Shown in pieces: positions 902-63,603 of a stretch of DNA of 64,000 nucleotides. Source of the stretch: Ornithinimicrobium murale. GTDB taxonomy: Bacteria; Actinomycetota; Actinomycetes; Actinomycetales; Dermatophilaceae. Positions within the stretch are counted from its first letter, which is position 1. The number at the start of each line of letters is the position of its first letter. The notes under the pieces were generated by a model. The model did not search any database. It was not told the origin of the DNA and saw only the letters and a list, made by a program, of their open reading frames with translations. A program made the translations under genes and the position numbers. The stretch spans positions 1-64,000 of the forward strand of contig NZ_QLVD01000033.1 of assembly GCF_003352835.1 (NCBI RefSeq), in the 5' to 3' direction.

Positions 902-1105
902 GCTGCTGCCTCCTCGCTGAGGTCCCACCCGCCAGCCACACCGGGCTAGCCGTCAGAGTGACGCACGTCCGGGGGCTTGGCAAGCATCTGGGCAACTTCT
1001 TGACCCAATGATGGTTCGGTCCCGACGCGGGGTGACCGTAGTCTTCGGTGACCGGTCGGCGAACCCGACCACCCGGCATACCCCAGCACGAGCGACAGGC
1101 CAGCG

Positions 1106-1741
1106 ATGTCCGGCTTCCTCGACGCAGTCAACGCCGCGCTGGTGGCTGCCGTCGAGCAGCCCTGGCTACTGCCTGCGACCTATCTGATGATCGTCCTGGA
1201 CGGCATCCTGCCGATCATCCCGAGCGAGGCCCTGGTCATGGCACTCGCCGCGCTGGACGGGCCGCCGGCGCTGCCCCTGCTCATCGCGGTGGCCGCCCTC
1301 GGTGCCATCACCGGGGACAACCTGAGCTTCGCGATCGGTCGCCTGCTGGGACCTGGACGTTTCGAGCGGCTGCGGGCGGGCCGGGTGGCCAGGGCCCTGG
1401 ACGCCGGACGGCGTCAGCTGGAGCACCGCCCGGCCACGGTGATCCTCACCGGTCGCTTCGTGCCGGTGGGCCGTGTCGCCGTCTACCTGGCCGCCGGGGC
1501 CAGTGGTTTCCCGCACCGCCGCTTCCTGCCGATCAGCATCCTGGGTGGCACGGTGTGGGCGGTCTACATGCTCGCCCTGGGGCTGCTGGCGGCGGCTTGG
1601 GTCGAGGGCAACCCGCTGTTCAGCGCCGTGGTCGGGGCCGGGCTGTCGCTGATGCTGGGTGCCGGGGCCGATCTGGTCATCCGGTGGCATCGGGCCCGGC
1701 GGGTGAGGGCCAAGGTGCCCTTCCCTCAGATCACTCCTTGA
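1106..1741 (+). CDS. DedA-family (SNARE-associated) membrane protein
   Basis: A 211-residue integral membrane protein of the DedA/VTT family, whose members act in membrane homeostasis and are proposed lipid carriers or flippases. The signature parts are visible: the first hydrophobic region with [14 protein letters not shown] (residues 32-45), [13 protein letters not shown] (70-82), and the R-containing core [17 protein letters not shown] (115-131). The length is typical. The start chosen is the first ATG, followed directly by an amphipathic segment; the ribosome site is weak. Its last 16 bases overlap the end of the convergent glutamate dehydrogenase gene, so no separate terminator can lie between them. 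Confidence 0.88.
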
Positions 1742-3069
1742 GCAATCATCGCGTCCGCCACCTGCACGAAGGCCGCGGCGTTGGCACCGAGCACGTAGTT
1801 GCCCGGCACGTCATACTCCTCAGCGGTTGCCGCGCACCGTTCATGGATGCCGCGCATGATCTCGGCCAGTCGCCCCTCCGTGTGCTCGAAGCTCCAGGAG
1901 TCGCGGGAGGCGTTCTGCTGCATCTCCAGCGCGCTGGTCGCCACCCCACCGGCGTTGGCGGCCTTGCCGGGTGCGAACAACACCCCCGCCTCGCGGAGAG
2001 TCCGGACCGCGGCCGGGGTGGCCGGCATGTTGGCGCCCTCTCCCACGGCCAGGCAGCCGTTCCTGACCAGGGCGAGCGCCCCGTCCTCGTCCAGCTCGTT
2101 CTGGGTGGCGCACGGCAGAGCGACCCGGCAGGGGACGTCCCAGATGGAGCCGCCGGCGACATATTGCGCGCCCCGCTGCTCGGCATACACCGAGATCCGT
2201 TCCCGGCGGACCTCCTTGATGTCCTTGAGCAGCTCCAGGTCGATGCCCTTCTCGTCGACGACATAGCCGCTCGAGTCCGAACAGGCGACGACCTTGCCAC
2301 CGAGCTGGTGCACCTTCTCGATGGCGTAGATCGCGACATTGCCCGACCCCGACACGATGACGCGCTGGCCGTCCAGGGAGGCGCCCTTGGTGTGCAGCAT
2401 CTCCTCGACGAAGTAGACCAGCCCGAAGCCGGTGGCCTCCTTGCGGACCTGGGAACCGCCCCAGCCCAGGCCCTTGCCGGTGAGGACGGCCGACTCGTAG
2501 CGATTGGTGATCCGCTTGTACTGCCCGAACAGATAGCCGATCTCCCGGCCACCGACACCGATGTCGCCGGCGGGGACGTCGGTGTACTCCCCGATGTGCC
2601 GATAGAGCTCGGTCATGAAGGACTGGCAGAACCGCATGATCTCCATGTCGGAGCGACCCTTGGGGTCGAAGTCCGACCCGCCCTTGGCACCACCGATCGG
2701 CAGGCCGGTCAGCGCGTTCTTGAAGATCTGCTCAAAGCCGAGGAACTTGACCGTGCCCAGCAGCACGCTGGGGTGGAAACGCAGCCCACCCTTGTACGGG
2801 CCCAGAGCCGAGTTGAACTCCACCCGGAATCCGCGGTGAATCTCGATCTTGCCCTTGTCATCAACCCACGGGACCCGGAAGATAATCTGACGCTCAGGCT
2901 CACACACCCGCGGGATGACCCGGGCCTCGGCATAACTGGGGTGCTTGCGCACCACCGTGCCCAGGCTGTCCAGGACCTCCAGCACCGCCTGGTGGAACTC
3001 GGTCTCTCCGGGATTGCGCTGCAAGACCTGCTCGTAGAGGGGGGCAAGGGCAGGATCTAGTGAGTGCAT
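1726..3069 (-). CDS. gdhA: NADP-specific glutamate dehydrogenase
   Basis: A 447-residue hexameric-type glutamate dehydrogenase, the same length as E. coli GdhA. It reductively aminates 2-oxoglutarate with ammonium to give glutamate. [12 protein letters not shown] (91-102) holds a substrate-binding lysine and GGAKGG (126-131) the catalytic lysine. [19 protein letters not shown] and the nucleotide-binding VSGSGNVA follow. An in-frame extension to 3258 is possible, but the ATG at 3069 follows GGGAG and matches the family N-terminus. The gene is monocistronic and converges on the DedA gene with a 16-bp overlap. About 155 bases separate it from the response regulator gene upstream. Confidence 0.95.
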
Positions 3070-3224
3070 GCAACAACTCCCGTTCCGGGTGGGGGCGGAG
3101 GGGCCAGAATATACGGATATCCGCATAGTCATGCACATCTGGGCTGTGGAACCGCTCACAACAGACCGGGTGAGAGCGGAACTCTTCCGGCCCTGACGTT
3201 GGGGCGCGGGGAGTCCTCCGGACC

Positions 3225-62551: not shown

Positions 62552-62750
62552 AAAAAGAACACCTTCGTTCTGAGCAGGGGTGAACCCGCGCCTGGCGGGA
62601 TGGTGGCGCTGAGCCTAGGGCTCTTGACGGCCGGACGGAAGGCTTTGCGTCAAGCGGTGCGTGAACGACGCGTGCCGGCCAGGTGAACTCACCTGAGCGA
62701 ACACCCCACGGCGAGGTATGCCGAGGCGCACCGCCGTGGCGACCCACGCC

Positions 62751-63503
62751 TCAGAGGGTGGTCAGCCAGTCACCCCAGCCCCTGAGCACCTCCTGCTCGG
62801 AGACACCGAGCACCTGAGGCAGCGCCTCAGCCAGTGGTGCACCCCCGGAAGTCACCTCGTAGAGCTCCACGAGCTGCTCCTCAGACCAGGTCTGGGCCAG
62901 GAAGAGGCAGGCCAACCAGGCCAGCGCGTAGCCGCCCCACGCGTCCTCCCCGGCCTCGGTCCCGGCGCTCGGGTCCGGCCAGGTCGTCGGTGACTCACCG
63001 GCTCGCACGGCATCGAGTGCGGACCCGGCGATCACGGCCGGGGCCAGGTCTGAGGCGCGGTGGGCGGTGTACTCCGCCAGGCCCTCCCCCAACCAGGGCG
63101 GCACTGCCCCGTGGCCCTGCATGCTCAGGTGGGTGACCTCGTGGGTGAGCACCGCCTGCCGCCCCTCCGGCGTCAGTCGGGTCCAGGAGTCCGGGTGGAC
63201 GACCACGTGCGCCTCGTCGAGGCTGCCCACGGTCACAGCGGGCGCCGTCTGGCTCGCGGGAGCCCCTCCGGTCAGCTCGGCGAACTCAGCTGCCGAGGCG
63301 GGCAGAATCACCTCGACGGGTCGGGCGACAGAATCTTCTCCCCAGAGGTCCTCGACCTGGTCCAGCGCGGTCTCGGTCATCGCCTCATAGGCCTCGATGC
63401 GCTCGGCCCGCGCGCTCCCACTGACCTCGATCTCGGTATCCCCACAGCCGGTCAGGACCACAACCAAGAGCACCGACAGCAGAGCCGGCATCGCCCCGCT
63501 CAC
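62751..63503 (-). CDS. Secreted zincin-type peptidase lipoprotein
   Basis: A 250-residue lipoprotein. The signal peptide ends LLVVVLTGC with the lipid Cys at about residue 20. The gluzincin site is AVLTHEVTHLSMQG (HExxH) with the downstream Glu in PPWLGEGLAEYTAHR. It is therefore a peptidase-MA-like metallopeptidase anchored outside the membrane. Start choice: GTG at 63503 follows GGGAG; frames reaching 63647 are longer and not signal-like. Target unknown. Confidence 0.85.
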   Translation of the reverse strand: MSGAMPALLSVLLVVVLTGCGDTEIEVSGSARAERIEAYEAMTETALDQVEDLWGEDSVARPVEVILPASAAEFAELTGGAPASQTAPAVTVGSLDEAHVVVHPDSWTRLTPEGRQAVLTHEVTHLSMQGHGAVPPWLGEGLAEYTAHRASDLAPAVIAGSALDAVRAGESPTTWPDPSAGTEAGEDAWGGYALAWLACLFLAQTWSEEQLVELYEVTSGGAPLAEALPQVLGVSEQEVLRGWGDWLTTL

Positions 63504-63603
63504 CCGCACTCCCGACCACCGCACCGTCCCAGGGTAGAAGGCGCCGGGGCCGACAGCGCTCCCGCGAGCCTCGGCATACCCGGTCTCCTCTGCTGACCAG
63601 GGA

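Follow-up and report, generated by a model that had tools for sequence, protein, structure and literature searches.

The DNA analysed here, referred to as the window, is a stretch of 64,000 nucleotides from Ornithinimicrobium murale, corresponding to bases 1-64000 of contig 9 of the host genome (G000; 3,285,756 bases in 33 contigs, 75% complete). An earlier note on this stretch had drawn attention to an octamer, CGGCATAC, of which it tallied about 31 copies by eye. The exact count over both strands is 31, with 19 copies on the plus strand and 12 on the minus strand. The copies are given below with the codons that they occupy, read on the gene strand; the gene calls come solely from our own simple codon-usage caller.

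1074..1081, plus strand, no gene called
2181..2188, plus strand, TAT GCC (Tyr-Ala)
4957..4964, plus strand, TAT GCC
7497..7504, plus strand, TAT GCC
8869..8876, plus strand, TAT GCC
8975..8982, minus strand, GCA TAC (Ala-Tyr)
9208..9215, plus strand, TAT GCC
16785..16792, minus strand, TAT GCC
17332..17339, plus strand, TAT GCC
21671..21678, plus strand, TAT GCC
22478..22485, minus strand, GGC ATA (Gly-Ile)
23080..23087, plus strand, TAT GCC
25484..25491, minus strand, GCA TAC
27345..27352, plus strand, ATG CCG frame (Met-Pro)
28424..28431, plus strand, GCA TAC
28645..28652, minus strand, GTA TGC (Val-Cys)
30537..30544, minus strand, GGC ATA
31740..31747, plus strand, TAT GCC
35969..35976, plus strand, GCA TAC
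37633..37640, plus strand, GGC ATA
37909..37916, minus strand, TAT GCC
38514..38521, minus strand, no gene called
41125..41132, minus strand, GGC ATA
45078..45085, plus strand, TAT GCC
46158..46165, minus strand, TAT GCC
50478..50485, plus strand, TAT GCC
54437..54444, plus strand, TAT GCC
55064..55071, minus strand, no gene called
56597..56604, plus strand, TAT GCC
62716..62723, minus strand, no gene called
63572..63579, plus strand, no gene called

The details that the earlier note gave of these copies are borne out: the rare codon ATA is found in Gly-Ile at 22478, 30537, 37633 and 41125, Val is encoded by GTA at 28645, and the simple caller places no gene at the five copies described as intergenic (1074, 38514, 55064, 62716 and 63572).

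The over-representation of CGGCATAC is real and genome-wide. The observed 31 copies lie well above the mean of 0.93 (maximum 4) obtained in 100 dinucleotide shuffles of the window and above the Markov expectations of 1.36 (order-2) and 1.8 (order-3). Nor is the excess confined to the window, since the host genome contains 1009 copies, 502 forward and 507 reverse, against 60 and 67 for the reversed word used as a control. A sequencing adapter, which we take to be Illumina P7, contains the octamer; contamination was rejected as the source, as none of the 31 copies in the window shows adapter flanks.

Codon-pair or compositional bias without function could be invoked to explain the word, and 47 to 62% of the coding copies do fall in a single Tyr-Ala frame (139 of 297 in genome G174, 95 of 170 in G011 and 16 of 26 in the window). 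However, the coding copies stand 7- to 15-fold above synonymous shuffles. Three types of synonymous-codon shuffle, run 20 times each, left 2.6-3.7 copies in the window, where 26 are observed; after synonymous shuffles 22.8-33.5 remained of 297 in G174, and 11.2-15.9 of 170 in G011. Words foreign to a genome stayed at background, both for CGGCATAC in G124 (2 copies, 1.9 expected) and for an unrelated word described below, CGAAGGGGG, in G174 (6 copies, 9.1 expected from the genome-wide shuffle). In the frame G-TAY-GCC-G, Tyr is encoded by TAT in 139 of 143 cases in G174, compared with 35-36% among other Tyr codons, and in 16 of 16 in the window, compared with 42% of the 26 other TAY-GCC pairs and 26% of the rest; the bias is equally strong in G011 (94 of 101 motif contexts). 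Rare codons complete the motif as well. In G174, GTA occupies 17 of 19 motif contexts against a background of 1.7%, and ATA 19 of 72 against 1.1-1.8%; the effect is weaker in G011 (GCA 29 of 60 against 3.6%, GTA 4 of 10 against 0.8%).

The copies were said at the outset to lie in differing codon frames. All six codon positions are indeed occupied in G174 and G011, while one of the six is missing in the window. The density of copies between genes matches or exceeds that within them, at 0.75-0.96 per kb intergenic and 0.85 per kb coding in G174 and at 0.64-0.80 and 0.50 per kb, respectively, in G011, and relatives of like G+C content lack CGGCATAC. The excess over the shuffles, the use of all six codon positions, the rare codons and the intergenic density together support selection on the DNA itself, as the earlier note had supposed, and make an origin in codon or compositional bias exceedingly improbable.

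Enrichment of CGGCATAC is a family trait. We classed genomes as strong when the word reached at least 0.09 per kb, and of 186 genomes of the family (53 genera) 111 were strong, 10 weak and 65 without the word. The strong genomes, at 0.09-1.36 copies per kb, are spread over 31 genera, and the ratio of the word to its reversed control in them is 2.5-70 (median 11). Of the 22 genomes examined from the order's other families, not one was rich in the word, with counts of 2-167, or 0.5 to 3.6 times the reversed controls. The comparison with related genera that the earlier note had suggested thus shows an excess that is family-wide. Counts are high in Ornithinimicrobium cavernae (1637), which also provides the nearest match, at 81%, to the DAHP synthase of the window, in Serinicoccus chungangensis (1518), Pedococcus bigeumensis (2551) and Phycicoccus sp. 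Soil802 (2241), and in a Lapillicoccus metagenome-assembled genome (3681). They are low in Ornithinicoccus halotolerans (50), which the genome classification used assigns to the genus of the window, and in Phycicoccus endophyticus (18), Nostocoides sp. Soil756 (29) and Mobilicoccus (29). Whole genera within the family lack the word.

We searched for alternative words in samples of 100-200 kb from ten genomes without CGGCATAC. The sample of G217 contained 103 copies of CGGCATCC where 10.5 were expected, and CGAAGGGGG was abundant in those of G124 (76, 4.6 expected) and G165 (50, 3.4 expected). CGGCATCC is a one-base dialect of CGGCATAC, whereas CGAAGGGGG is an unrelated word. Seven of the ten samples gave no clear alternative: 8-mers were only 4- to 5-fold up in G155, G156 and G162 (CGATGCGG, GTACGGCG and GTACGCCG, which are perhaps further dialects), the best 8-mers of G200 and G222 were 3- to 8-fold up with few copies, and G110 and G094 had no abundant 8-mer. 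Over the 186 genomes, CGAAGGGGG is high solely in genera g52 (16 of 16 genomes) and g61 (3 of 3), with 797-1939 copies, and numbers 11-80 elsewhere. CGGCATCC is high in seven genomes of genera g34, g40 and g73 (2099-4480 copies); outside them it numbers 241-1336, a range to be read against its higher codon background. Two g40 genomes are rich in both words, with 1217 and 1189 copies of CGGCATAC beside CGGCATCC, and the remaining two have 361 and 288 copies of CGGCATAC, barely above the cut-off. The g2 genomes G031 and G194, where CGGCATCC stands at about four times its control, may be a further weak case. Altogether 133 of the 186 genomes carry a strong word among CGGCATAC, CGGCATCC and CGAAGGGGG. 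In a tree built from the ComEC of 23 genomes, CGAAGGGGG marks one clade, CGGCATCC must have changed at least twice (two gains would suffice), and genomes with CGGCATAC are interleaved with word-free ones. Orthology of the loci pooled from Cellulomonas, from Streptomyces, from Nocardioides and from a Nonomuraea-Microbispora group confounds a word search in them.

The tolerance of the word to change is uneven. In G174 and G011 a one-base change within its first three positions gives enriched variants (such as CGCCATAC, 88 copies and 13 expected in G174, and GGGCATAC, 49 and 5 in G011), and variants at the last five positions reach at most about 2-fold above expectation. Among copies that lie wholly or partly outside coding sequence, the +1 flank is C in 86% of 44 in G011 and G in 55% of 55 in G174. 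Among four species of genus 1 (77-83% identity), the fraction of sites conserved exactly was 0.32-0.75, compared with 0.26-0.41 for control 8-mers, which were matched on G+C count only and not on codon frame, and the motif exceeded the controls in all 12 directed comparisons. Summed over these, 138 of 274 orthologous sites were conserved, so that half turn over. Conservation above the controls with this much turnover is expected if the density of sites matters and not each site.

The placement of the copies depends on their orientation. We used a set of 886 CGGCATAC copies in 1505 kb and left out pairs closer than 60 bp to exclude hairpins. Pairs in the same orientation at 60-1000 bp number 175, where 277.5 were expected (standard deviation 16.4), and none of 400 simulations gave so low a value; pairs in opposite orientation number 311, with 286.3 expected (standard deviation 15.9). 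A smaller set that included pairs below 60 bp gave the same orientation result. Same-orientation pairs are outnumbered by opposite ones at 60-250 bp (22 vs 70, p = 5e-7), 250-500 bp (54 vs 76, p = 0.065) and 500-1000 bp (99 vs 165, p = 6e-5). Beyond 1 kb they stand at 0.92-1.10 of expectation and opposite pairs at 0.91-1.06, the exception being a bin of 0.72 at 1000-1200 bp. Below 1 kb the two opposite arrangements are equally frequent (plus-minus 155, minus-plus 156). At 60-250 bp, control 8-mers of similar abundance show the opposite tendency, with a same-orientation fraction of 0.59, and none was as low as the motif among the 14 that qualified in G174 or the 139 that could be scored of 150 sampled in G011. 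The control 8-mers show no such depletion, and we therefore do not attribute the exclusion to deletion between short direct repeats. The other words lean as CGGCATAC does at 60-1000 bp (CGAAGGGGG, 10 same and 29 opposite; CGGCATCC, 37 and 66); in the genus-1 set, enriched one-base variants are likewise excluded around the main word (83 and 137). This exclusion of copies on the same strand to about 1 kb, a statistical footprint, points to a signal that is probably read along one strand.

Other aspects of the arrangement are less uniform. The coefficient of variation of the spacing shows copies in G174 to be more even than random (0.87 vs 1.03), while neither the whole of G011 (1.14 vs 1.00) nor, clearly, the window (0.88 vs 0.96) is so. 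Positions within genes are roughly flat over quintiles, with no preference for gene ends. Copies of the local word in convergent intergenic DNA are dense in G217 (7 in 1.6 kb), G165 (10 in 1.7 kb) and G124 (7 in 6.4 kb) and not in G174 (6 in 6.2 kb). Inverted-repeat pairing was rejected as the main form of the word, as close pairs show no excess in G174 or G011. Two 20 kb stretches are nearly empty of the local word, L099 of G174 with one copy and L132 of G124 with none.

We also considered proteins that might act on the word. comEC is present in 180 of the 186 genomes, among them genomes without the word; one of the six negatives is the window's own genome, which is incomplete. A gene that we labelled ComEA-like from its sequence, rather than through a family search, adjoins comEC in 23 of the 24 regions inspected; the caller found no comEC in the remaining one. 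The type IV pilus protein PilM was found in 7 of the 186 genomes, in 6 of them above the cut-off. ComEC, being near-universal, and PilM, being near-absent, therefore do not separate motif-bearing from motif-free genomes, and a receptor of the known ComP type is unlikely in view of the rarity of PilM. RecC is patchy, being found in 89 of the 186 genomes, and may differ within a genus (g30 and others); G081, for example, has it while its four genus mates do not.

The best explanation of CGGCATAC is, in our tentative judgement and at somewhat less than even odds, an orientation-dependent, Chi-like signal of recombination or repair. The octamer would be the form taken locally by a DNA signal of the whole family, selected for density on each strand separately, and a strand-tracking machine would meet it in a single orientation, during recombinational repair or DNA integration. 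One copy per strand in about 1 kb would suffice and a second on the same strand would not be favoured; a copy on the opposite strand would serve travel in the other direction. The spacing is what suggests a strand-tracking reader, because an orientation-blind signal should exclude neighbours in both orientations. RecBCD and AddAB recognise Chi in one orientation in the same manner. The reader to consider first in this phylum would be AdnAB, an end-resecting helicase-nuclease, and the word might drift or be replaced along with the specificity of its reader, giving rise to the dialects. The Chi sequences (GCTGGTGG of RecBCD and the words of AddAB) are also short, non-palindromic and over-represented, both inside and outside genes. 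The footprint in the spacing is orientation-specific as Chi would have it; it was measured in this family alone, and Chi and the uptake sequences discussed below are likened to it by description.

Several observations weigh against a Chi-like signal. We found no leading-strand bias in G011, the one genome in which polarity was tested (103 copies leading and 111 lagging, with the contig starting at dnaA and the terminus assumed to lie opposite), whereas polarity is a stated property of Escherichia coli Chi in the available text of PMC8022716. Two-ended breaks, which would need both orientations, could account for the missing polarity. RecC is uncoupled from the word, being present in 66 of 133 strong-word genomes and 23 of 53 others (p = 0.52), and was rejected as a separating factor; a Chi-like signal would thus need another reader. 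The Chi of Enterobacteriaceae is described as well conserved (PMC8022716, in part), unlike the one-base shifts, word replacements and losses seen here within one family and even inside genera. The enriched variants of G174 show no exclusion (157 same, 159 opposite), and 8 of 30 close pairs, from five genomes, are inverted at convergent gene ends and appear terminator-like. By analogy, the non-polarity, the fast change of dialect and the terminator-like pairs recall uptake sequences, as these are portrayed in parts of PMC3630211, PMC2397512, PMC7811141, PMC1939737 and PMC2346458. Of the functions proposed in the earlier note, a Chi-like signal therefore gains from the strand-specific spacing and loses by the lack of polarity and of a link to RecC, while a segregation or replication motif with strand bias relative to the origin finds no support in G011.

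An uptake sequence of the kind known as DNA uptake sequence (DUS) or uptake signal sequence (USS), by which competent cells would prefer word-bearing DNA and recombination would spread the word in lineage dialects, is the closest alternative, possible but doubtful. It would accommodate the CGGCATCC dialect of three genera, the two genomes with more than 1000 copies of both words, the unrelated CGAAGGGGG in one clade of two genera, the lack of polarity in G011, and the wide presence of comEC with its ComEA-like neighbour. In the uptake sequences of Neisseriaceae and Pasteurellaceae, too, density is up to about 1 per kb, the strands are balanced and some one-base variants are enriched. According to the available text of PMC3630211, DUS dialects exist, one Neisseriaceae genome has two of them and some genomes have none; inverted pairs at convergent gene ends are given as a mark of uptake sequences there and in PMC7811141 (in part). 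The range of about 1 kb resembles DUS spacing and the length of conversion fragments, as reported in part of PMC2397512. Against uptake stands above all the spacing: exclusion is limited to copies in the same orientation, whereas uptake is independent of orientation in the accessible part of PMC1939737. comEC also occurs in word-free genomes, PilM is missing from nearly all of these Gram-positive hosts, and no Gram-positive uptake sequence was seen among the titles and abstracts listed for uptake sequences and Actinobacteria. The suggestion of uptake made at the outset thus agrees with the dialects and the terminator-like pairs and not with the same-strand spacing, and it is the latter, with its free placement of opposite copies, that leads us to favour the Chi-like signal over a classical uptake sequence. 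Membership is claimed for neither, as polarity and RecC fail for Chi and orientation-blindness fails for uptake. That the family uses a strand-sensing recombination code of Gram-positive bacteria distinct from both, with lineage-specific words whose copies tend to keep at least about 1 kb apart on each strand and which change with their reader, is a speculative possibility.

A word linked to methylation, in which a lineage methyltransferase would mark one strand of the non-palindrome and the mark, through repair or through recognition of strand or self, would favour the word, seems unlikely. Such a role has been proposed for highly iterated palindrome 1 (HIP1) of cyanobacteria. Like HIP1 and the alternate HIPs, CGGCATAC is a genome-wide word that some lineages have lost or exchanged for another, and alternate HIPs replace one another in close relatives together with a cognate methyltransferase (PMC4390886, in part). 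The strand-specific spacing could follow from a mark on one strand, and enrichment of the variants is stronger for changes in the first three positions than in the last five. Restriction sites, however, are normally avoided rather than enriched in genomes. HIP words are palindromes (PMC4390886, in part), whereas CGGCATAC is non-palindromic. A protein-binding site that serves to organise or segregate the chromosome, similar to the FtsK-orienting polar sequences (KOPS) or bound by a nucleoid protein, would fit the genome-wide spread in the 111 strong genomes. We regard it as very improbable, given the lack of polarity in G011 and the whole genera without the word; moreover, a site that works in either orientation should not show same-strand exclusion.

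Among the titles and abstracts listed from open-access literature on Chi, AdnAB, uptake, over-represented words in Actinobacteria and Ornithinimicrobium, none describes CGGCATAC, CGGCATCC or CGAAGGGGG, a weak negative because the letter matches, swamped by the adapter, were covered for 20 of 2,606 and 20 of 643 papers; the available parts of PMC3497702 and PMC2843746 do not mention them. The same-strand exclusion, limited to about 1 kb, leaves a footprint that can be measured and might tell orientation-dependent signals from orientation-blind ones. CGGCATAC provides a concrete candidate for the open question of whether AdnAB answers a Chi-like sequence, and, should AdnAB be its reader, Chi-like control would be seen for the first time in that class of enzyme. 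A lineage word read in this way could favour repair with, or acceptance of, DNA of the own lineage, and if it governs DNA exchange, it would bear on how these actinobacteria are isolated genetically and on how they can be engineered. As the family mixes CGGCATAC, two other words and lineages in which none was found, the reader could be sought through differences in gene content.

Several further sequences were noted in the genomes sampled. Stretches L092-L111 of G174 contain 20 copies of GTGAGGCTTT in 400 kb (0.1 expected), which is unrelated to the motif. GTATCGAGAC occurs nine times in three of the five stretches L167-L171 of G162 (0.1 expected) and GCAACCGCAA 11 times in L132-L141 of G124 (0.2 expected), and runs of at least 10 C fill 44 windows in three of the five stretches L187-L191 of G165. 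In the window itself, three minus-strand genes were recognised in addition to the motif copies. The product of 13972-16050 exceeds the cut-off for DNA gyrase subunit B; 22733-26665 encodes a DnaE-type DNA polymerase III alpha subunit, whose best match, an error-prone DNA polymerase, lies under its cut-off; and 59285-62551 encodes a protein of 1088 amino acids of the ExeM/NucH extracellular nuclease family.

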